The notes under the pieces are model-generated. The model did not search any database, was not told the DNA's origin, and saw only the letters and a list, made by a program, of their open reading frames with translations. A program made the translations under genes and the position numbers. A stretch of DNA of 64,000 nucleotides from a virus, in the IMG/VR virus record IMGVR_UViG_3300032214_000528, positions 1 through 64,000 of that record, one strand, 5' to 3'. Shown here one piece after another: positions 41,882 through 53,928 of this stretch (the stretch's first letter is position 1; every line of letters starts with the position of its first letter).

Positions 41882-42595
41882 ATGAGTAACTTGGTTAAGT
41901 TTGTAGATAGATATGGCAATACCCCTAAGCACTTATACCCTGTACCAGCTAAGGATATTCTGCCAGACTGGTACAAGGCAACTACTAGCCACTATCAAAA
42001 CAAAAAGAAGATCTACGGAAAAGATATGACTTCTGGTTTAACATCAGGCACAGTTAAAAAATGTATTCCTGTTTTTGATGCTCTTACAGCAGGATACATC
42101 ATTGTGACAACTGTAGACATAAGTGTTACAAGCAATTATGGAGAGAGCGAGTTTACTTGGTCTTCTGAAGGAGCAGCACTAGGCACTCATCCTATAGGGC
42201 AAGCAGACCTACACCCCTATGTCAGTGGTGATAAGAGAATTATGAAATTTGCTAATCCGTGGGGGATTCAAACCCCTAAAGGATATTCCTGTCTTTTTAT
42301 CCCCCCTGTTCATAGAGAGTCTGTTTTTAAAATTCTTGAGGGGGTTGTTGATACTGATACCTATTTAAATCCTGTAGAGCTTCCTTTTGTTTTGACTGAT
42401 CGTAATTTTAACGGGATTATCCCTGCTGGAACCCCTATGGCACAAGTGATTCCTTTCAAACGGGAGTCATATAGGATGGAGATATCTTTTGCACAAGAGG
42501 ATATAGAAAAGCAAAAAGGCATCTTTAGAGATATTAGATCAACGTTTTTTAATAGCTATAAGGATAGATTTTGGTCTAAGAAGAACTACAGCTGA
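41882..42595 (+). CDS. Beta-rich hypothetical protein, halogenase neighbourhood (237 aa)
   Basis: Motifs in order: PDWYKATTSHYQNK near 28-41, KCIPVFDALTAGYII near 60, then MKFANPWGIQTPKGYSCLFI with PPVHRES near 120-148, and FNGIIPAGTPMAQVIPFKRE near 178-198. The W.I.TP.G...L..PP.H...PL..IIP pattern is shared with the protein at 48248-48991 and more weakly with the pair at 46615-48170. It resembles DUF6065-type proteins from memory; the beta-strand density suggests a double-stranded beta-helix. No enzyme activity can be assigned. Confidence 0.75.
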   Translation: MSNLVKFVDRYGNTPKHLYPVPAKDILPDWYKATTSHYQNKKKIYGKDMTSGLTSGTVKKCIPVFDALTAGYIIVTTVDISVTSNYGESEFTWSSEGAALGTHPIGQADLHPYVSGDKRIMKFANPWGIQTPKGYSCLFIPPVHRESVFKILEGVVDTDTYLNPVELPFVLTDRNFNGIIPAGTPMAQVIPFKRESYRMEISFAQEDIEKQKGIFRDIRSTFFNSYKDRFWSKKNYS

Positions 42596-42633
42596 GAAAG
42601 TAGGAGTTTCTTATTTAGGATAGAGTTTTACCT

Positions 42634-42879
42634 ATGAGTGAAGACGATATCCCAGAGGATAATTTGGATGACCTTGAGTTTGAGGGTATGACCCCTCTAG
42701 ACCAAGACGCTGCCAATATGCATGAAATGTTTGAGTCCTTGAAAAGAGCTGGGTTTACTGATCGTCAAGCTCTTCAATTAGTTGCTTTTCTTGTTGAAGA
42801 AAGTGGTAATGGAGGAGCCAATATTGAATTTGTCGCTGACCCAAATATGTTCCCAGACGACGAAGACGACGATCAATGA
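42634..42879 (+). CDS. Acidic hypothetical protein (81 aa)
   Basis: Both ends are strongly acidic (MSEDDIPEDNLDDLEFEG and PDDEDDDQ) around a helical middle (MHEMFESLKRAGFTDRQALQ, LVAFLVEES). Such small acidic proteins are sometimes DNA mimics or polymerase binders, but no family is recognised. Its stop overlaps the next start (ATGA). Confidence 0.65.
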   Translation: MSEDDIPEDNLDDLEFEGMTPLDQDAANMHEMFESLKRAGFTDRQALQLVAFLVEESGNGGANIEFVADPNMFPDDEDDDQ

Positions 42880-43148
42880 TTGAACCGACTCCCGAAGAAG
42901 AAGCTCTAGTTGAAATGCTTTTAGAGGCTGGGGCTCTTTATATTGGTGGGGTTGATGAGAATGGTAAAGAACTTTATTTTATGGACCCTCCTGTGATGAA
43001 GGAGGTCTGTCCACCCTTTTATGATTTGTGGATGCGTGATTTAGATGATGGTCTTATGGAGCTATTTAAGCTGGGACTTCTAGATGTTAACTATGATGAG
43101 AGTTTGAAGCCACGGTTTTCTGTTAGGACTATGCCCTTAGAAGATTAA
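42876..43148 (+). CDS. Acidic hypothetical protein (90 aa)
   Basis: A 90-residue protein (MIEPTPEEEALVEMLLEAGA, YFMDPPVMKEVCPPFYDLW) coupled to the preceding gene by ATGA and ending 16 bases before the halogenase ATG. No family recognised; the co-directional packing suggests it belongs with the halogenase operon. Confidence 0.65.
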   Translation: MIEPTPEEEALVEMLLEAGALYIGGVDENGKELYFMDPPVMKEVCPPFYDLWMRDLDDGLMELFKLGLLDVNYDESLKPRFSVRTMPLED

Positions 43149-43164
43149 ATGGTAGGGTTCAAGC

Positions 43165-44733
43165 ATGATACAGACAAGAAAACTTGAAAAAATTACCGTA
43201 GTAGGCGGTGGAACTGCAGGTTGGTTAACTGCACTATACGTCAAAACATGCTTACCTGATTCAGAAGTAACTCTTATTGAGTCAGAGGAAATTGGTATCT
43301 TAGGGGCTGGTGAAGGGTCTACTCCTCACCTAGTCTACTTATTAGATCTTGTTGGTATTCCTGTTTCTAGGGTTATCAAAGAAACTGGTGCGACTATAAA
43401 GACTGGTATTAAATTCACTAATTGGAATAATGATGGTGAATTTTATTATCACGGGTTTGCAATGAGAGAGGGTTTTGGATTTAACTCTGTACAGATAAAC
43501 CCCCTTGCTTTATCGACATTATCTACATATGTTAGCAATGCTGTAAAGAATGAAAAGCTTGGCTTAGTTGACATGTCAGAAAAACTAGGGGAAAGCAATA
43601 AAGTTCCGTTTACTGTTAATAGAGATGCTCCAGCAGATGTCTCTAACACTATATTTAAGTTTAATAACTACGGAGATTTTTCTCTGCACTTTGATGCAAA
43701 AAAGCTAGCAGAGCTATTGAGATCTATTGGAGAAGACCGTGGTATTAAAAGAATTGAAGGGATTGTAGCCTCGACAGAAGAAGACTCGTATGGTGATATA
43801 AAAACAATTACACTGGAGTCTGGTGAAAAGGGAGAGACTGATTTTGTTTTTGACTGCACTGGTTTTGCGAGATTCCTTATTGGAAAAAAGTTTAAGTCTG
43901 AGTGGGACAGCTACTCAGAATATCTGCCTGTAAATGCAGCAATTCCTTTTTTCTTACCTGCTAACGAAAACAACACTCCTCCATACACAGAAGCAATAGC
44001 TATGAAGTATGGTTGGATTTGGAAGATTCCTCTACAACACAGGTTTGGTTGTGGATATGTCTACGACTCTAGTTTAATAACTGAAAAACAAGCTATGGAA
44101 GAAATAGAAGACTATCTTGGTTTTGAACCAGAGTATCCTAGAAAAGACAAAGGTGGCTTTAAATTTAGCGCAGGGTCATATAAACAACCTTGGATTAAAA
44201 ATTGTATTGCTGTAGGACTATCTTCTGGATTTATTGAGCCACTAGAGGCAACTTCTATTTGGGTAAGTATTATGTCTCTTAGAGAAGCGCTCTCTAACGT
44301 AGAGCTTATGACACTTAAAGACGATAGAGTTTCAGATGAATATAACTCTTACATGCAAAAAATTAATGAAGAAGTTCGTAACTTTGTATACTTTCACTAC
44401 ATGTCTAATAGAAATGACACGGAGTTTTGGGAAAAGTTCTCTGACTATAATAAAGCTCCAGAAGGAGTTAAAACTATTGTGAATAAGTGGTCCTATAGAC
44501 CTCCTAGAGTAGAAGATAAGTACGGTATTTTCTGGACTATTGAAAGTTGGTACGCGGTAGGTTGTGGAATTAACTTAGTTGATAAAGAAGTTATAAAGCG
44601 ATCTTACACTCATGCAGATGTGAGTAAGTGGGCTTTTGGTCAATATGGAGATTTAAAAGCAAAACAAGATGATGCTGTTAAACATTTTATGGACCACTCG
44701 CAATTCATAGAAGAGCTTAAGCATGAAATTTAG
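43165..44733 (+). CDS. Flavin-dependent halogenase, phage VirX1-like (522 aa)
   Basis: The tryptophan-halogenase family marks are all visible: FAD-binding GGGTAG at residues 14-19, GEGSTP at 49-54, a Lys at position 79 in ATIKTGIKFTNW (the site of the catalytic Lys of PrnA-type enzymes), the WxWxIP motif in GWIWKIPLQHR near 285, and GLSSGFIEPLEATSIW near 352. The reaction expected is FADH2- and oxygen-dependent formation of a Lys-bound hypohalite that halogenates an aromatic substrate. Homologues are known in cyanophages, including the characterised VirX1 of phage Syn10. No flavin reductase is seen nearby. TAGGGT lies six bases before the ATG. Confidence 0.9.
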   Translation: MIQTRKLEKITVVGGGTAGWLTALYVKTCLPDSEVTLIESEEIGILGAGEGSTPHLVYLLDLVGIPVSRVIKETGATIKTGIKFTNWNNDGEFYYHGFAMREGFGFNSVQINPLALSTLSTYVSNAVKNEKLGLVDMSEKLGESNKVPFTVNRDAPADVSNTIFKFNNYGDFSLHFDAKKLAELLRSIGEDRGIKRIEGIVASTEEDSYGDIKTITLESGEKGETDFVFDCTGFARFLIGKKFKSEWDSYSEYLPVNAAIPFFLPANENNTPPYTEAIAMKYGWIWKIPLQHRFGCGYVYDSSLITEKQAMEEIEDYLGFEPEYPRKDKGGFKFSAGSYKQPWIKNCIAVGLSSGFIEPLEATSIWVSIMSLREALSNVELMTLKDDRVSDEYNSYMQKINEEVRNFVYFHYMSNRNDTEFWEKFSDYNKAPEGVKTIVNKWSYRPPRVEDKYGIFWTIESWYAVGCGINLVDKEVIKRSYTHADVSKWAFGQYGDLKAKQDDAVKHFMDHSQFIEELKHEI

Positions 44734-45007
44734 AACACAGTGGATAACCGCCTTAGGATCGATGAAGAAAAAAGAATATTGGAATTTACCTAATACAGTA
44801 GAATTTGCTGCTTTTATGACTAAAGCTGCAATTATTGTTCCCGGTCTTTTATTTGATACTCAACTGTGGTGGCTCTATATAGTTGCTCTTCTCACAAGCA
44901 TATCTTTAGTTTGGTCATCTACAGTCAAAACCTTGCCTACTATCATTTGGTTTAATATTTTATGGAGTGGTTTAGCTATTGCTGCTATCGCTAAGCATTT
45001 TATCTAA
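44723..45007 (+). CDS. Three-TM membrane protein (94 aa)
   Basis: It starts inside the last codons of the halogenase gene (11-base overlap), so it is translationally coupled. Three hydrophobic helices are seen (FMTKAAIIVPGLLF, WWLYIVALLTSISLVW, IIWFNILWSGLAIAAIAKHF). The N-terminus contains EYWNLPNTVEF. Function unknown; coupling suggests a membrane partner for the halogenase or its product. Confidence 0.65.
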   Translation: MKFRTQWITALGSMKKKEYWNLPNTVEFAAFMTKAAIIVPGLLFDTQLWWLYIVALLTSISLVWSSTVKTLPTIIWFNILWSGLAIAAIAKHFI

Positions 45008-45225
45008 GAGTCTCTAACTATTTTTGCAACATATTTTAAAACTTCGTCTGGTCTCCATGATGGATCTATCTTTGAATTTTCAATCTTATCTGCTAGGTCT
45101 TTTTTAAATTGAGCATGACCCCACCCAAACTTAGGCTCCAGCATATGAGTAACCTTGTCTCTAACTACCCCATTTACTCTTTCATACTCTTTTAACATTA
45201 CTGCAGCAAATCTAGGAGACAACAT
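45004..45225 (-). CDS. Hypothetical protein (73 aa)
   Basis: A 73-residue basic, helical protein (RFAAVMLKEYERVNGVVRDK, FGWGHAQFKKDLADKIE). A GAGGAG ribosome site precedes the ATG, which lies inside the end of the next upstream gene. It converges with the three-TM gene by a four-base overlap. No family recognised. Confidence 0.65.
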   Translation of the reverse strand: MLSPRFAAVMLKEYERVNGVVRDKVTHMLEPKFGWGHAQFKKDLADKIENSKIDPSWRPDEVLKYVAKIVRDS

Positions 45226-45625
45226 CTGACTCCTCCATCTTCATAGTCTCGTGCTCGACGTCGTTGTTAGCAGAGTAAAGTTTATAGGTAGTTCCACCAT
45301 TATTAGAAAATGCGTCACGATTGCGAATGCTCTGCCATAGGTCATCGCCAATCTGTACCCACTCCCTAGGCTCATTTGTAAGTGGAGCAAGGTTCTCGTA
45401 GCGCAGTAAACGATTGAGAGTTCCTATGCAATGATCTGTTGCTTCTGGACCTAACTGCATAATGTTGAATGCTTCAATGACAGAGACGTACCAAAGAATA
45501 ATCTTTGCATCCTCTTGAATAAGACTTAGCTCGCCAATTGCATGCTTAGACAGATCCGATAAATTCGTGGGAATAACTCCACCTTTCGTTGTTGAGCTCC
45601 CAACGACTTTTCGTTGCTTTCCCAT
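45212..45625 (-). CDS. Conserved-looking phage protein (137 aa)
   Basis: It overlaps the ABC/GNAT gene by 79 bases, yet AGGAGGA four bases before the ATG makes the start convincing. The protein is helical (KHAIGELSLIQEDAKIILWY) with EPREWVQIGDDLWQSIRNRD and AFSNNGGTTYKLYS in the second half. I do not recognise a family; the overlap shows it is co-expressed with the ATPase. Confidence 0.65.
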   Translation of the reverse strand: MGKQRKVVGSSTTKGGVIPTNLSDLSKHAIGELSLIQEDAKIILWYVSVIEAFNIMQLGPEATDHCIGTLNRLLRYENLAPLTNEPREWVQIGDDLWQSIRNRDAFSNNGGTTYKLYSANNDVEHETMKMEESDVVS

Positions 45626-46622
45626 CTGTCCTCCTCATATGGTTCTTTGATGTTGGTTTCCACACTGATGATTGGTCTCGATACTCACCTAGTCGTGGAT
45701 GCGATGTCTTTGAAAAGAATCGCTTTCCATTCTCTGTGTAATGTCGAGCTACTGCTTCGGAGATGCGTGGTCCAAAACCGAAACCCTGATAGTCAGGATG
45801 TACGACAAGTCTATGCTCTCTGAAAGCATTTTGCACAGTACCAGAGGGATAGGCCATGACGGATGCAAAACCTACTAACTGTCCTTCCCAGAGAGCCATG
45901 TAGTTGTGTGAGGCTTTGTTGAGCGACTCGGAGAGATAGTGATGCTTAGCGAAGTAGCTCCAAAGTAAGTTTGAGCAAGGGAATATTTCGAGTACCAGTT
46001 CAGGTCGTTGAAGATACCTCCCCGAGGTCCACTCGCCACGATCAGTATCAATTACCCAATCTGGTTCCAGAAACTCAAGGATGTCACGATGCACTGTTGC
46101 AAGAACTATCCCCTTAATCTTATTCTTACGAACATAGCGAGCCATAGAAGTTGATGCTGCCTTTGCAACATTGCGATCAATTACTGATGTGTATTCATCA
46201 ATAACTGCTCCACTACGAAGTGAACGAGCAAGTCCTGCTCTAAACTGCTGGCCATTAGATAAAGCATGAAATGGTTTGATCCACTCTGGAACGCTCATAA
46301 GTCCTGCAGCAGAAAGTCTTTCATTTGCTTTTTCTGGTGTTCCAAAGTGAGATGCAATAGATTTCTTTGAGTCCCAGATAAGGGTTGATGGTGAACCAAA
46401 AGACTTAAGAAGTGTTGACTTACCTGTACCAGATGCTCCAACAATAACGCCAATACCGAAGTCTTTAGGTAAATCGTCTGGGATTAAATATGGATAGAAA
46501 ACCTCTGTACCAGTTGATACATAATCAAAAGGACGAATAAGATCTTGAGTAAGCTCATCCATTTCTACGCTTGATGTGAGAGGAGAATCTGATCTATTTA
46601 ATTTAAACCATTCCTCACTCAT
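45546..46622 (-). CDS. ABC-type ATPase fused to GNAT acetyltransferase (358 aa)
   Basis: Residues 50-205 form a soluble ABC ATPase: Walker A GASGTGKST at 62-70, the signature helix LSNGQQFRAGLARSL near 122, Walker B GAVIDEYTS near 138 and the H-loop ATVHRD near 174. Residues 205-358 are GNAT-like: HYLSESLNKASHNYMALWEG, then the acetyl-CoA binding VVHPDYQGFGFGPRISEAVA. There are no membrane segments, so it is not a transporter. Proteins of this layout occur in actinophages; the substrate is unknown. It may use ATP hydrolysis to control acetylation of a host or phage target. Confidence 0.82.
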   Translation of the reverse strand: MSEEWFKLNRSDSPLTSSVEMDELTQDLIRPFDYVSTGTEVFYPYLIPDDLPKDFGIGVIVGASGTGKSTLLKSFGSPSTLIWDSKKSIASHFGTPEKANERLSAAGLMSVPEWIKPFHALSNGQQFRAGLARSLRSGAVIDEYTSVIDRNVAKAASTSMARYVRKNKIKGIVLATVHRDILEFLEPDWVIDTDRGEWTSGRYLQRPELVLEIFPCSNLLWSYFAKHHYLSESLNKASHNYMALWEGQLVGFASVMAYPSGTVQNAFREHRLVVHPDYQGFGFGPRISEAVARHYTENGKRFFSKTSHPRLGEYRDQSSVWKPTSKNHMRRTDGKATKSRWELNNERWSYSHEFIGSV

Positions 46623-47397
46623 CTGGCACTAGGTTTTCTTTAATGATCTTTGCAACAATCTTATGTGTCTTTGTTTCTTTAAATTGTTTGTACCTATCTA
46701 CAAGAGGAGCGAAAGGACCAAATGTGTATCTATATGATCTACAAGCTGCTGTTATAGATTGAAGTTCATCATTAACAATAAAACGCTTAAGGACAACATT
46801 TCTTGTTGTATTGAACTTTGCATAAAATAGAGGATCATCTTTGTCAATTTTAAGTTCGTTCACGTTCTCCCAGAGCTGGATATCAGTATTGATCTCTCTA
46901 AACCAACCGCCAATATTAAAAGCACCACCAACAAAAGCACCTTGCTGCATATATGTTGCTTTATGGAAATACGGGGAAGTAACCTCCATTTGAAGATCTT
47001 CTTCACAGAAAAACAAATATGACAAAGAGTAATTAACAATCAATGACTTATTTAAACTTGGAGGTCTTCTTACAGATGCACCAATAGCGTTCTCGATCCG
47101 AGACATTAACTGTCCTCTGTAAGGATCCCAAAACAAATCAGCATCTCTAGAGTTATGAAATAGGTAAGTGTTCCTATGAAAATCAGACACAGCTGGGCAG
47201 TATAGGTAGCTATCTTGCTTAATCTCTTTATTTCTACGACTTTTAAGTTCCTCTAAACTATTTATAGGATCTCTATAAGACATATTCCAATTTACGTTGT
47301 GTGCCCAGTAGTCTGGGTCAGTTATCTCTGGTTCTGCGACTGGGAGTTTAAATGATGGCGCCCAGTAAACTATAAGGTCTTTTTCTTTTTTAGACAC
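46615..47397 (-). CDS. Beta-rich hypothetical protein, paralogue A (260 aa)
   Basis: It is a clear paralogue of the next gene: IVYWAPSFKLP, YLYCPAVSDFHRNTYLFHNS, SYLFFCEEDLQMEVTSPYFH, FNIGGWFREINTDIQLWEN, then DPLFYAKFNTTRNVVLKRF. The order of blocks (C-P-A, hydrophobic strand, PP.H-like, strand, P-L-F-Y) also follows that of the plus-strand proteins at 41882 and 48248, so all four may share one fold. A function is not known. Confidence 0.7.
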   Translation of the reverse strand: MSKKEKDLIVYWAPSFKLPVAEPEITDPDYWAHNVNWNMSYRDPINSLEELKSRRNKEIKQDSYLYCPAVSDFHRNTYLFHNSRDADLFWDPYRGQLMSRIENAIGASVRRPPSLNKSLIVNYSLSYLFFCEEDLQMEVTSPYFHKATYMQQGAFVGGAFNIGGWFREINTDIQLWENVNELKIDKDDPLFYAKFNTTRNVVLKRFIVNDELQSITAACRSYRYTFGPFAPLVDRYKQFKETKTHKIVAKIIKENLVPDE

Positions 47398-48170
47398 TAT
47401 CCCTCCAATAAATTCTTTTTAATTTCCTTCAAAACAATCTCTCTACTGCTTGTCTTATTAAACAGCTCGTATCGTTTTTCAAGAGACGGTTCGTTATGAT
47501 GACTATTGATTAAGTTTCTCGTAATCACGGAAAGAGTGTCTGTATATACAAAACGTTTTAATATGATGTCTCTATCTGTGTTAAAGCTAATATAGAACAA
47601 AGGTTCGTTGTCTTCAAAGACTAAACGTCCTTTAGGCTCCCAGAGTTGAAGTTCAAAGTTAAAAGGTCTAAACCAACTTCCAATGTCATATTGTCCTGGA
47701 ACAGGGGTAGCGTAGTTTAAATACTTGGGTCTATGAAACATTGGTGGAGTTATCTCTGCATTAATTGACTCTTCTGAGAAGAAAAGCCACCTTAGCTGCA
47801 TATCAACTGTTGGCTTATCCATCAAAGCGGGAGCTCTTCTTACTGCAAAGTTTAAATGCCTTTCTTGCTCTGGCATAAAAGTAGAATCATTCCTATCCCT
47901 AAGATCATATGTGTATGAGCATGCAATAGCATTATAGAAAACAAAAGTCTTTTTAAAAGTATTTTTTGCTGCTGGACAAGATAAATATGTTGTTGGACCA
48001 CGCTGAGGATTTTTCTCAGCCATAAGGTCAGAATGAAGACTTTTTGGATCTGAATAAATTAAATGCCCGTGAGTGTTGTTCCAGTCTTCTGCTGAAGCAT
48101 CCTCTACAGCACCGGGAGTCCAATAGATAACTAATGGCTTTTTTTCGTCATCTGTCTTTTTAAAGTCCAT
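47397..48170 (-). CDS. Beta-rich hypothetical protein, paralogue B (257 aa)
   Basis: Key blocks are VIYWTPGAVED, YLSCPAAKNTFKKTFVFYNA, RWLFFSEESINAEITPPMFH, YDIGSWFRPFNFELQLWEP and EPLFYISFNTDRDIILKRFV. It adjoins paralogue A with a one-base overlap, indicating tandem duplication. A well-formed promoter precedes it on the minus strand (TTGTTT, 17 bases, TATGCT, six bases, ATG), so translation is probably leaderless. Confidence 0.7.
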   Translation of the reverse strand: MDFKKTDDEKKPLVIYWTPGAVEDASAEDWNNTHGHLIYSDPKSLHSDLMAEKNPQRGPTTYLSCPAAKNTFKKTFVFYNAIACSYTYDLRDRNDSTFMPEQERHLNFAVRRAPALMDKPTVDMQLRWLFFSEESINAEITPPMFHRPKYLNYATPVPGQYDIGSWFRPFNFELQLWEPKGRLVFEDNEPLFYISFNTDRDIILKRFVYTDTLSVITRNLINSHHNEPSLEKRYELFNKTSSREIVLKEIKKNLLEG

Positions 48171-48176
48171 ATCTAG

Positions 48177-48205
48177 AGCATACTGGACTAGAAAAAGAAA
48201 AACAA
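48177..48205 (-). promoter_or_regulatory. Sigma70-like promoter, leaderless start
   Basis: On the minus strand TTGTTT (48205-48200) is followed 17 bases later by TATGCT (48182-48177) and six bases later by the ATG at 48170. This is a near-consensus vegetative promoter with no room for a ribosome site. Confidence 0.6.
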
Positions 48206-48213
48206 GCGGTAGG

Positions 48214-48241
48214 TTGCATCTTTCTTAATTCTGTGTATGAT
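48214..48241 (+). promoter_or_regulatory. Sigma70-like promoter, leaderless start
   Basis: TTGCAT (48214-48219), a 16-base spacer and TATGAT (48236-48241) are followed by six bases and the ATG at 48248. It is back to back with the leftward promoter at 48177-48205, so the whole 77-base gap is a divergent control region. Confidence 0.6.
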
Positions 48242-48247
48242 AGAGAT

Positions 48248-48991
48248 ATGATTAATCAGGGAAACGACGTTCCAGAGAAGACAATTGCAGTCTTTATGAA
48301 GAAGCAAAACGGTCCTGTCAATGAAGAAAGAGTTCGTGGTATCTTACAAAAACCAGATAAGAAAAGGGATTGGTTTACCCCTAACTTTTATAGGTGTCTT
48401 CCACTTATTATAGGAAACACTTATGGGTATGTTTTAACTGCAGAATACGAGTTTAGCGTTGTGTGGGACGGTGGAGAAGGTCCCGAGTCTGTAAAAATTA
48501 CAACTCCTGATGAGGACTACCTTAAAAAGTTCCCTCTTGTTACTTCACACTTTGGATCTGGGATTGTCACTATAAGCGCTCCTTGGGTACTTAGAACCCC
48601 TCCGGGAGTAAACCTTATGACTATCAACCCACCTAACCATATTCTTCCAGCGATTACTGTTATGACTGGTGTAGTAGAGACAGATAACTCTCGTGTTGAT
48701 TTCACTTTTAATATGAAAATTCAGCTTCCAAATGTAGAAATAACATTCCCGGTTGGAGAACCATTAACGGGAATCATACCTATACCTAGATACTATGCTG
48801 ATGAGTTTGAGTTGAAGATGGCAGAAGATATTTTCTCTCAGGAACTGGTGCAGGAAGAAGCAGATGCTACTATTAGATCAGATATAAAAAGGTCTCAGCA
48901 TATACACAATGACCCTCCTATCTTTGACAAAGAGTATATGAGAGGTGTTGATACCTATGGAAATAAATTCCCCGACCATCAAAAGAAATAA
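48248..48991 (+). CDS. Beta-rich hypothetical protein, DUF6065-like (247 aa)
   Basis: The ATG at 48248 is chosen over an in-frame GTG at 48233 because the GTG overlaps the -10 box. Blocks: DWFTPNFYRCLPLIIGNTYG near 40-59, ISAPWVLRTPPGVNLMTINP with PNHILP near 110-135, then PVGEPLTGIIPIPRYY near 175-190. The W.L.TPPG...L..PPNH signature is that of DUF6065-like proteins as I remember them and matches the 41882-42595 protein. No catalytic residues can be named. It is 12 bases from the next gene. Confidence 0.75.
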   Translation: MINQGNDVPEKTIAVFMKKQNGPVNEERVRGILQKPDKKRDWFTPNFYRCLPLIIGNTYGYVLTAEYEFSVVWDGGEGPESVKITTPDEDYLKKFPLVTSHFGSGIVTISAPWVLRTPPGVNLMTINPPNHILPAITVMTGVVETDNSRVDFTFNMKIQLPNVEITFPVGEPLTGIIPIPRYYADEFELKMAEDIFSQELVQEEADATIRSDIKRSQHIHNDPPIFDKEYMRGVDTYGNKFPDHQKK

Positions 48992-49731: not shown

Positions 49732-50667
49732 TTATCCCTTAATTGGTAGTAATGACTTTAATACTGTTTCCTGTGGCAGTATTGCTATATGAGATGAAAC
49801 ATCTTTACTTCCGTAACTAATAAGGAAATTATCTCCCTGTGTAGTTAAACCTGCTGCAAACTCTACGCCACGATTCTCGAATATAAAGCCTCGTGAAAGA
49901 GCGATTAGCTTGCCTTTTTCATCATACTTTGCAAAGTAATGAACATAAAATCTATGAGTATTATTTAATATAATTCTAGTAAATAATCTGTGAACAACTG
50001 CTAGATAACTTCCATCTTCTAACGGATAAAGATTACTATTACCTCTAAGGGATGCAATCTGTTGATTGTCAGTAAGATGTGTTGTCATCTTGTTTCCCTT
50101 AATAGTTGAATTTGGACCATAGATCCAATCAAAATATTCATTAGGTTCAGGAGATAACATCCAGTTTTTCTCTGGTTTGTTTGCGTCCATTCCTTCGAAC
50201 TTCTCGAGGGACTCTATTGATCTTAGGTTATTGCTAAGACGACAGATAGCCATACGAGCTTTTTCTGTATGACCCTTCTCCATAGTCACGCAGGTAAAGT
50301 GCCATGCACCATCACGATAGAAAAGCTTCGGGTCTTCTAAACCACGGCGTAACGGTCCTTGCTCTGAAAGAGCATCTACATCAAGAAGACGCAAGTCAGT
50401 AAGTTTGTAGGTTTTTGGGTCAATCTCGGATATGTAAATCTTGCTGCGAATAAAGTCACCAGAAACAACTTGATAAGCACCCAATGGGTTGATGACATAG
50501 TTGCCAGAGCGAAGCATTCCAACATATCCAGTGGACTCGTGATAGCCAATAGATAAGTTAGTAGCAGACCACTCTTTAATATTTGGGTCAGCTAATCGAC
50601 GAACATTCTTAATCTCTCCACCTAGCTGATGGATCGTGGGTGCACTCTTCTCATCTTCAATCTGCAT
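49732..50667 (-). CDS. GH130-like five-bladed propeller glycosidase/phosphorylase (311 aa)
   Basis: RRGLEDPKLFYRDGAWHFTC near 108-127 is the EDPR-type motif of GH130 and related five-bladed propellers, and later blades show NWMLSPEPNEYFDWIYGP, GNSNLYPLEDGSYLAVVHR and FENRGVEFAAGLTTQGDNFL. These enzymes act on mannosides or similar linkages, but some phage relatives may only bind sugars. It follows a methyltransferase gene with an 11-base overlap, and a glycosyltransferase is encoded at 56861, so surface- or DNA-glycan handling is plausible. Confidence 0.72.
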   Translation of the reverse strand: MQIEDEKSAPTIHQLGGEIKNVRRLADPNIKEWSATNLSIGYHESTGYVGMLRSGNYVINPLGAYQVVSGDFIRSKIYISEIDPKTYKLTDLRLLDVDALSEQGPLRRGLEDPKLFYRDGAWHFTCVTMEKGHTEKARMAICRLSNNLRSIESLEKFEGMDANKPEKNWMLSPEPNEYFDWIYGPNSTIKGNKMTTHLTDNQQIASLRGNSNLYPLEDGSYLAVVHRLFTRIILNNTHRFYVHYFAKYDEKGKLIALSRGFIFENRGVEFAAGLTTQGDNFLISYGSKDVSSHIAILPQETVLKSLLPIKG

Positions 50668-51445
50668 AGATCACCTTTGGATGTCTATCAACTACACCAC
50701 TTACTTTCTTAGCAACTGCAAAGATGTTATCACCAGTGTGTTGGACTTTGATCCCTATCATCTCGAGGCGGAGAGCAATGCCAACATGTGGTTCTTCAAA
50801 TGAGTCTTCAGTCCAAGTTGATCCATCAAAGCCAGCAGCTTTAAGAACTGCTGTAAGTGAATGAATGCTGTATTCGTAGTTGTGTCGATAGAGTGATCGA
50901 TCATGTCGATACTGCATGTAAAAATATGGCTCGATGCCATTAAGTATTTTATGAATTGCCCAAGTGCTAGCGCAGTTAGGTGTTGTAACTAAAAGGGTTC
51001 CTCCGACTTTAAGAACTCTATTAATCTCTGAAAGCATGTACATGGGGTCGACCTCCATGTGCTCAATAACTTCCGAGAGGAGTATGAAGTCGAAGGAATT
51101 ATCGTCGAAGGGAAGTGGCTCATCTTCAATGTTTACACGACCAACTTTAAGATTAATAGATTCATCTTGAAGTGTGAATATGTCTTCGCCAAGTTTTGGT
51201 TTATCTAAGTTGAAATCAGTAACGGTTAAATCTAGCTCTGGTGCAAGCTTGCTAAGAACAAGTGGGATGAGAGAGGTTGTCCCTATCTCTAAAAACTTAC
51301 CTTGAGGTTTTTGATCAAGGATTACTTGTAGGGTTCTTGCCATTCGACGAGCGTGACCGTAATGGTAGTTGTCTTCTTTTTTAATTAAAGGTTTCATAGC
51401 ATTGACAATTTCTGGTGAAATATCTTTGTAAGTCTCTGTAATCAT
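50657..51445 (-). CDS. SAM-dependent methyltransferase (262 aa)
   Basis: The ATG at 51445 overlaps the deaminase stop (ATGA) and gives MITETYKDISPEIVNAMKPL; a longer frame has no ribosome site. Class I motifs: GKFLEIGTTSLIPLVLSKL (motif I), LDLTVTDFNLDKP (II), FDFILLSEVIEHMEVDPMYM (IV) and LKVGGTLLVTTPN (V). The EVIEH segment is typical of small-molecule or sugar O- or C-methyltransferases. The neighbour is a sugar-active propeller, so a carbohydrate acceptor is the best guess. Confidence 0.85.
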   Translation of the reverse strand: MITETYKDISPEIVNAMKPLIKKEDNYHYGHARRMARTLQVILDQKPQGKFLEIGTTSLIPLVLSKLAPELDLTVTDFNLDKPKLGEDIFTLQDESINLKVGRVNIEDEPLPFDDNSFDFILLSEVIEHMEVDPMYMLSEINRVLKVGGTLLVTTPNCASTWAIHKILNGIEPYFYMQYRHDRSLYRHNYEYSIHSLTAVLKAAGFDGSTWTEDSFEEPHVGIALRLEMIGIKVQHTGDNIFAVAKKVSGVVDRHPKVIYAD

Positions 51446-51843
51446 TCTTCTTCTCCCAAATATACAAAGCGCTCGATACCTGCAGACTGCATTATCTTCA
51501 TACAACCTGGACAAGGATGACCCGTGATGTAGATAGTTGAGCCTTGAAGCTCTTCCCAAGATGCACGAATAATTGCGTTAGCCTCAGCGTGAGTTGCCCA
51601 GCAAAGGTCGTATTGTCCTTCTGAATGTTTTGAATTAGGGTCAAGTGCCCTAGGACATTGACCTGTAGCTCCACAAGAGTTTTCACTTCCGGGAGGTGAT
51701 CCGTTATATCCTGTAGAAACAATCTTATGATTTTTCACAATAACAGCGCCATGTTGCGCTCGCACACAATCACCACGCATAGAAACCGCAACGGCTATAT
51801 TGAGATAGTAGGTGTCCCAATCTGGGCGTTGTAATTCTGTCAT
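51442..51843 (-). CDS. Deoxycytidylate deaminase (133 aa)
   Basis: The zinc site is complete: THAEANAIIRA with the HAE motif near 87 and GHPCPGCMKIM with the PCxxC motif near 109. QHGAVIVKNHKIVSTGYNGS near 31-50 is the usual family segment. It converts dCMP to dUMP, the substrate of the phage ThyX. TAGGCT lies six bases before the ATG. It heads a three-gene run with the methyltransferase and propeller. Confidence 0.92.
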   Translation of the reverse strand: MTELQRPDWDTYYLNIAVAVSMRGDCVRAQHGAVIVKNHKIVSTGYNGSPPGSENSCGATGQCPRALDPNSKHSEGQYDLCWATHAEANAIIRASWEELQGSTIYITGHPCPGCMKIMQSAGIERFVYLGEEE

Positions 51844-53173: not shown

Positions 53174-53347
53174 CTACTTCTCTTCTTCTTCTTCTTCTTT
53201 AGATATACGATATGCAGTTCCTCCGCAAACGCCTCTACCCATTGTGCGGCGCTCACATGAGACGGTTTCAAAGCTTTTTAATGAATCGTCATAGTTATAA
53301 GAAACAATTTCATCGCAGAGAAAACATTTATATACGTACAACGTCAT
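53174..53347 (-). CDS. Zinc-ribbon protein (57 aa)
   Basis: MTLYVYKCFLCDEIVSYNYD has CxxC; FETVSCERRTMGRGVCGGTA supplies two more Cys; the tail is a run of Glu. The ATG lies within the last codons of the first WhiB gene (20-base overlap), indicating coupled translation. The family is not recognised beyond the ribbon. Confidence 0.65.
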   Translation of the reverse strand: MTLYVYKCFLCDEIVSYNYDDSLKSFETVSCERRTMGRGVCGGTAYRISKEEEEEEK

Positions 53348-53630
53348 AAGTAATTCCTAATCTTTTTGCAAGTTCGTGTCTTCTTTCTTCGTTCATACCT
53401 CCCCAAACGCCATAGACTTCTGGAACTTTAAGAGCGTGGTCGAGACATGCTTGCTTTACAGGACATGTATTGCAAATTGCAATAGCACTTTGTTCCCTAT
53501 TTCTTTTAGTTTTGCCACGCATGTTTTCTTCAAGAAAGAAGCTATCTGTATCAACTCCATTGCAAGCTCCCTGATACTGCCACTCCCATTGGTCGTGAAC
53601 AGGTTTTAGAGCTTTGCTAACTACTGTCAT
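53328..53630 (-). CDS. WhiB-family iron-sulfur regulator (100 aa)
   Basis: The four cluster-binding Cys are present: YQGACNG near 23, AICNTCPVKQACLDHAL near 51-67, followed by the turn YGVWGGMNEERRHEL. The basic C-terminal part is short. WhiB proteins carry a [4Fe-4S] cluster and regulate transcription with the principal sigma factor; they are restricted to Actinobacteria and their phages. A phage WhiB could redirect host transcription or block superinfection. Confidence 0.93.
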   Translation of the reverse strand: MTVVSKALKPVHDQWEWQYQGACNGVDTDSFFLEENMRGKTKRNREQSAIAICNTCPVKQACLDHALKVPEVYGVWGGMNEERRHELAKRLGITYDVVRI

Positions 53631-53928
53631 TGTGCTCTCTTTCTAAAACCTCTAGGTGGTCTCTAACTAAGCCAATCGGTACAACAGGTTTTCCAACTAT
53701 CCCATGTTTACGTCTGTAGGCATCTCTTTCATTGAAAGTAGTTCCAGCCCATACTCCGTAAACTAAGTTATCTCTTGCATGTTCAAAACATTCATCTAAT
53801 GCTGGACAACTACTACACATTCGCTTAATGTGATTTAGATTCGTGTAATTAGCATTACCTGAATCATCTTCAACAAAAAACAAATTTATATCTAGTCCTA
53901 GACAAGATGGTGTGTTTTTAAAATGCAT
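53617..53928 (-). CDS. WhiB-family iron-sulfur regulator, second copy (103 aa)
   Basis: Cys residues in NTPSCLG near 9, then MCSSCPALDECFEHAR near 37-52, and the turn YGVWAGTTFNERDAYRRKHG identify WhiB. It differs from the adjacent WhiB outside the motifs and has a longer C-terminal helix region (VPIGLVRDHLEVLERE). The genes overlap by 14 bases. GGAGC precedes the ATG. Confidence 0.92.
   Translation of the reverse strand: MHFKNTPSCLGLDINLFFVEDDSGNANYTNLNHIKRMCSSCPALDECFEHARDNLVYGVWAGTTFNERDAYRRKHGIVGKPVVPIGLVRDHLEVLEREHNDSS

Follow-up and report, generated by a model that had tools for sequence, protein, structure and literature searches.

Results

The halogenase locus and its setting

The stretch of DNA analysed here (the window, 64,000 nucleotides) comprises bases 1-64000 of the 135,031-base IMG/VR record IMGVR_UViG_3300032214_000528, a phage of freshwater type whose host is probably an actinobacterium, as suggested by the WhiB-like genes at 53328 and 53617 that were recognised by eye. 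The record also carries ThyX and a class II RNR. All the open reading frames of an earlier, preliminary description of this DNA were recovered at the same positions (Table 1), and several overlap with operon-like spacing, by 4 nt (42634/42876), 11 nt (43165/44723) and 1 nt (46615/47397). A promoter scan of the region returned fewer matches than in shuffled sequence.

Table 1. Features of the halogenase locus and its surroundings, in window coordinates
Feature	Position	Strand	Basis or context
Tail-fibre array: large, collagen-like and repetitive proteins, one of 1930 and one of 1673 residues	1-22199	-	
Virion structural protein, 412 aa	39461-40699		phrog_1645; directly upstream of the region
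p1, DUF6065-superfamily, phrog_7084 type, predicted dUTPase-like fold	41882-42595	+	phrog_7084 4e-56; AF2 pLDDT 92.4
Two small acidic proteins, 81 and 90 aa	42634-43148	+	same apparent transcription unit as halogenase
Flavin-dependent halogenase, 522 aa	43165-44733	+	Pfam Trp_halogenase 1.6e-106; phrog_2928 2.4e-109
P5, 94-aa three-TM protein	44723-45007	+	11-nt overlap with halogenase ORF
Tad3, type I Thoeris defence inhibitor	45212-45625	-	Pfam 2.1e-18
ABC-type ATPase and GNAT acetyltransferase fusion (ABC-GNAT)	45546-46622	-	phrog_11143 3e-104
p7, DUF6065-superfamily, phrog_17480 type	46615-47397	-	phrog_17480 7e-23; profile link to p1/p9
p8, DUF6065-superfamily, phrog_17480 type, predicted dUTPase-like fold	47397-48170	-	phrog_17480 4e-19; AF2 pLDDT 83.8
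p9, DUF6065 (PF19541)	48248-48991	+	Pfam 3.6e-41
Uncharacterised 311-aa protein, probable cassette member	49732-50667	-	homologue in L028/L029 halogenase-P5-methyltransferase run
SAM methyltransferase, probable cassette member	50657-51559	-	Methyltransf_23 6e-12; L028/L029 order halogenase-P5-methyltransferase
Two adjoining WhiB-like proteins	53328-53928	-	by eye

The Pfam Trp_halogenase match spans the full length of the halogenase, which has every motif of the Trp-type flavin-dependent halogenases, GxGxxG(W), Lys, WxWxIP and Glu: the FAD motif GGGTAGW at residue 14, the lysine at exactly residue 79, GWIWKIP from residue 283 and the catalytic glutamate E358. Across 81 aligned phage halogenases K79, E358 and GWxWKIP are 98-100% conserved, and the range is 94-100% once GGGTAGW is included; the FAD motif, WxWxIP and Lys79 had been reported as kept, and all three are present and near-invariant across these relatives. 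As the catalytic motifs are near-invariant, we regard the enzyme as complete and probably active if FADH2 is supplied. The Flavin_Reduct domain (PF01613) was not found anywhere in the 135-kb record, in agreement with the previous remark that no flavin reductase is encoded.

The label "VirX1-like" that was first given to this protein is a loose one, since its similarity to bacterial Trp-type halogenases (E 1e-57 to 6e-66) exceeds that to VirX1 (2.8e-46), and in the tree the Syn10 halogenase pair occupies a long, deep branch separate from it; it thus falls outside a VirX1 subgroup defined by closest kinship to VirX1. The C-terminal region, in which the free-Trp-binding residues of RebH presumably lie, is poorly conserved by eye in the phage halogenase alignment, and NCBIfam gives a weak likeness, below the cut-off, to QhpG and LodB, flavoenzymes that modify proteins; together these observations offer a hint that free tryptophan may not be the substrate.

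Four paralogues with a predicted dUTPase-like fold

Of the four beta-rich proteins at the locus, p9 is a clear member of DUF6065 (PF19541), an uncharacterised bacterial family for which no publication was found in the literature searched, whereas p1, p7 and p8 have no PF19541 match by themselves and are remote relatives reached through iterative profiles. Iterative HMMs started from p1 and from p7 converged on the same 158 proteins and recovered all four, which a single iterated profile picks up at E 5e-83 to 6e-34 with similarity over most of each protein. When the two starting groups were compared cleanly with each other, the probability was 79% (E 1.6e-5). The four are paralogues of one superfamily, DUF6065 in the broad sense, consisting of DUF6065/phrog_7084 and phrog_17480. 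No further p1/p9-type copies were found by profile elsewhere in the 135-kb record, all those detected residing in this region, and tblastn found no relatives of p7 among isolate phages.

AlphaFold2 models were made of p1 and p8, one for each branch of the family, from alignments that share no sequence. The best 50 PDB matches of the p1 model in Foldseek are dUTPases without exception, the best matches of p8 are dUTPases and dCTP deaminase-dUTPases (probability up to 0.99), and a viral structure library agrees on the dUTPase-like fold, which is thus predicted to be common to the superfamily. Converging HMMs, the comparison of the two groups and both models bear out the kinship proposed in the preliminary description, and the unrelated folds that it had named as evidence to the contrary were not observed.

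By sequence, a search of solved structures with the DUF profile gave no significant match, and a profile alignment puts the family in register with genuine dUTPases, though at weak significance (E 0.06, phage; 0.0034, bacterial), GVVDTD aligning with GLIDSDY and GTPMAQ with GDRIAQ of dUTPases. What the window proteins have in common with the all-beta dUTPases (PF00692) is the predicted fold, whereas most of the catalytic motifs are lost: neither the catalytic Asp of motif 1 nor the PRSG of motif 2 is conserved, the acid of motif 3 is retained as D, E or N, the Gln of motif 4 persists only in the p1 type, having disappeared from the p7/p8 type and the bacterial proteins, and no motif 5 was seen in the C-termini. 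Conserved instead are a near-universal cysteine (C61, 98%) and a tryptophan (W30). Judged by motifs 1-5 the superfamily does not belong to the PF00692 enzymes, and with most of the catalytic motifs missing it would have the dUTPase fold but probably not dUTPase activity.

Members and bystanders of the cassette

The most constant partner of the halogenase is P5, with its conserved core WSSTVKTxPT.IWFNI: a halogenase is present in 71 of the 78 P5 loci, mostly overlapping, as in the window, and the coupling formerly noted for the three-TM protein stands. The methyltransferase, whose real start is likely about 51445, and the 311-aa protein are probably part of the set, as both come after halogenase and P5 in relatives. 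In locus L478, from the window-phage relative G419, a 330-aa ORF following P5 shares an N-terminal motif by eye with the 311-aa protein. The latter matches nothing in Pfam, PHROGs or NCBIfam, and its assignment as a GH130-type glycosidase was dropped.

The two acidic proteins are probably hitchhikers, as their homologues adjoin the ABC-GNAT gene instead in L113 and homologues of one of them, p3, are found away from a halogenase in many loci. The functional set as first drawn therefore keeps the DUF6065-type genes and P5 and loses the acidic proteins. Tad3 and the ABC-GNAT gene probably do not belong to it either. Tad3 homologues in relatives likewise have this ABC-GNAT gene nearby, and in L028 the fusion gene lies directly downstream of a p7-type gene.

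Coupling of DUF6065-type genes to halogenases

In Syn10, where the VirX1 frame is identical to PDB 6qgm over its whole length, a phrog_7084 gene (1.8e-71) lies directly downstream of VirX1 and overlaps it by 17 nt, with a second halogenase and two tail-fibre genes on the upstream side and 2OG and JmjC oxygenases on the downstream side. A p1-type gene in L478 overlaps the halogenase by 1 nt, followed by P5. Other loci have the orders DUF-DUF-P5-halogenase (L045, L051 and L468, with close p9 homologues in L045 and L051), DUF-DUF-halogenase-P5-halogenase (L471, L475) and halogenase-DUF (L151), and L078 has a tail-fibre gene, three 2OG oxygenases, halogenase, DUF, ORF and DUF, a p7-type member included. 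Thus, all three subtypes of the window occur in halogenase operons elsewhere, and several deep phage branches, that of VirX1 among them, show direct coupling of the superfamily to halogenases.

Before dereplication, DUF6065-type genes were found within 5 kb in 18 of 80 halogenase loci compared to 8 of 136 controls, but upon dereplication at 90% the numbers became 7/40 for halogenase and 6/48 for terminase/ThyX loci (p=0.56), and we discarded loose clustering as statistical proof. Direct adjacency, defined as lying within 300 nt on one strand, was detected in 14/81 versus 1/48 (p=0.009) in a partly biased set that includes loci found via P5 or DUF, and in 5/40 versus 1/48 (p=0.09) in the halogenase-anchored set alone. 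Within the window phage group, all four records with a window-type halogenase have at least three DUF genes, compared to none of the 12 records without it, which carry 0-2 copies (p about 0.001; hypergeometric 5.5e-4, or 0.002 without L028). Most p1-type DUF genes stand apart, a halogenase being nearby in 2/80 and an oxygenase in 6/80.

Oxygenases and tail fibres

Oxygenases of the P4H-like, 2OG_5, JmjC and Asp/Asn-hydroxylase types accompany phage halogenases, lying within 5 kb in 36 of 80 loci, and the association is pronounced (18/40 versus 1/48, p=6e-7). The P4H-like, Asp/Asn hydroxylase and JmjC classes are known to modify proteins. A halogenase travelling alone, which the preliminary description had considered damaging to its proposal, is contradicted by these oxygenases, by the DUF6065-type genes within 5 kb and by P5, which adjoins it in many loci. 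The window itself lacks a 2OG-Fe(II) oxygenase beside its halogenase, and a scan for PF13640 found none in the 135-kb record.

Of 18 bacterial DUF6065 loci, 9 have a 2OG oxygenase as the gene immediately upstream, one bacterial protein is a DUF6065-JmjC/Cupin_8 fusion (L214) and another is likely a P4H-DUF6065 fusion (L181, 2065-3483), in which the P4H-like N-terminus was recognised by eye and Pfam confirms the DUF6065 part. The superfamily is coupled to Fe(II)/2OG oxygenases in both phages and bacteria. DUF6065 was present in 42 of 385 genomes sampled from one bacterial class, about a tenth. In the bacterial loci L177 and L181 DUF6065 domains are fused to tetratricopeptide repeats and stand in tandem with more DUF6065 copies.

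As to tail fibres, 68 of 80 loci have the p1-type gene within a tail-fibre array, a partly circular count given that the HMMs were built from the same loci. In DSL-LC01 the halogenase lies just downstream of collagen/tail-fibre and baseplate-type genes. A general position of halogenases beside tail-fibre genes was rejected, since fibre HMMs detected it in 1/80, although it is seen by annotation in Syn10, DSL-LC01 and L078; the window halogenase is about 20 kb from its own fibre array. A second phage halogenase type of the same group (L480-L486) overlaps or abuts a family 2 glycosyltransferase that contains TPRs, a methyltransferase lies upstream, and a comparable halogenase-glycosyltransferase pair is present in DSL-LC01.

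Discussion

Like VirX1 (Syn10, PDB 6qgm), the window halogenase is a phage-encoded Trp-halogenase family member that has K79 and the conserved Glu, and the VirX1 gene too overlaps a DUF6065-superfamily gene. Unlike the window halogenase, VirX1 belongs to a deep separate branch, resides in a tail-fibre/2OG operon and has no P5-type protein that we could find beside it. A halogenase-2OG-cupin gene cluster was described in cyano-jumbo phages (Iyer et al. 2021, PMC7824862), in which a phage flavin-dependent halogenase is likewise combined with other modification enzymes; that cluster has a 2OG oxygenase, whereas PF13640 is missing from our record, and the passage describing it mentions neither DUF6065 nor a dUTPase-like fold. 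Clusters of halogenase and oxygenase in cyanophages are therefore already known, and the link to DUF6065 and the fold appear to be new.

Based on our data we tentatively favor, at a likelihood a little short of even, a phage modification cassette in which an FADH2-dependent halogenase acts on a protein or surface target with the DUF6065 proteins as substrate-handling partners. The host would supply FADH2, the halogenase would form HOX, and K79 would carry it to an electron-rich aromatic group, belonging not to free tryptophan but to a protein side chain or some other large substrate exposed at a surface, the likeliest target being an adhesin or tail-fibre protein of the phage or a component of the host envelope. 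The DUF6065 proteins could bind and present this substrate or be the substrate themselves, as might also be the case with the protein hydroxylases that accompany them elsewhere, P5 could keep halogenase or substrate at the membrane, and the benefit to the phage might be a change in, or protection of, its receptor binding. A protein or surface target is suggested by the partners held in common, namely protein-type hydroxylases, tail-fibre operons and a dUTPase-fold protein. Genuine dUTPases are trimers. VirX1 has been described as a trimer too, with an open active site that takes large substrates (PMC8407142), which makes a trimer-on-trimer complex a reasonable candidate. In the window's clade P5 suggests action at the membrane, and a membrane partner is easier to reconcile with a lipid-linked or envelope substrate than with a tail fibre, which counts against an adhesin target. 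The loose proximity (7/40 versus 6/48), the p1-type genes that mostly lack halogenase and oxygenase, the 20-kb distance to the fibre array and the 1/80 fibre count also weigh against such a cassette. A quorum signal or the cell wall, both suggested previously as targets, received no specific support.

The main rival, possible but on the unlikely side, is a small-molecule pathway, in which halogenase, oxygenases and methyl/glycosyltransferases would make a halogenated metabolite derived from amino acids or sugars, or decorate host capsular polysaccharide, and the DUF6065 proteins would be pathway-specific binding proteins. Proposed by Iyer et al. 2021 (PMC7824862) for the halogenase-2OG-cupin cluster, such a pathway would accommodate the methyltransferase and the uncharacterised enzyme-sized gene of the cassette, the coupling of the second halogenase type to a TPR glycosyltransferase and a methyltransferase, and P5 as a predicted membrane protein; yet the partner hydroxylases include the protein-modifying classes, no sugar-nucleotide or NRPS genes are recognisable in the cassette, and the VirX1, L078 and DSL-LC01 loci have a tail-fibre context.

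It is unlikely, in our view, that the DUF6065-type proteins merely belong to tail-fibre loci, as virion parts or assembly factors, and share variable regions with halogenases without a joint function. The ORFs that overlap halogenases in several deep lineages, VirX1 included, the co-presence with the window-type halogenase and the oxygenase fusions in bacteria, where no virion exists, all speak against such a coincidence, even though p1-type genes are common in fibre arrays, mostly with neither halogenase nor oxygenase, loose proximity is unenriched once dereplicated, and the single copy of haloarchaeal viruses lies close to tail adhesin genes, where the stretch that was read gave no match to a halogenase. 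The predicted fold could also be taken to mean that these proteins are divergent dUTPase/dCTP-deaminase-like nucleotide enzymes standing in for a missing dUTPase and unrelated to the halogenase, as PF00692 was not found in the record with its ThyX and class II RNR, and S-RIM4 and some haloviruses have the genes next to thymidylate synthase or RNR. We consider this very improbable given the unconserved motifs 1 and 2, the unseen motif 5, the loss of the motif 4 Gln in the p7/p8 type and bacterial members, as many as six copies per phage, the canonical dUTPase that DUF6065 bacteria (G004, G074 and G081) also have, and the DUF6065-oxygenase fusions.

Beyond the modification cassette that we favor lies a broader and quite doubtful generalization, that the DUF6065 superfamily has a role not recognised before, providing enzymes that functionalise C-H bonds with an adaptor, or a carrier substrate, of dUTPase fold. 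Phages would join it to flavin halogenases and hydroxylases and so modify adhesins or tail fibres post-translationally, while bacteria would pair or fuse the adaptor with P4H- and JmjC-type oxygenases. If true, the native job of VirX1 would be protein halogenation. The recurrent partner beside VirX1, sometimes overlapping in ORF, offers a concrete handle on the native substrate of phage halogenases, and DUF6065 gains a predicted fold and a functional context.

One phrog_7084-type gene, annotated as hypothetical, is carried by many haloarchaeal HF1/HF2-like tailed viruses (Hafunaviridae; loci L003 and L004), in which it lies between tail adhesin genes and thymidylate synthase or RNR.
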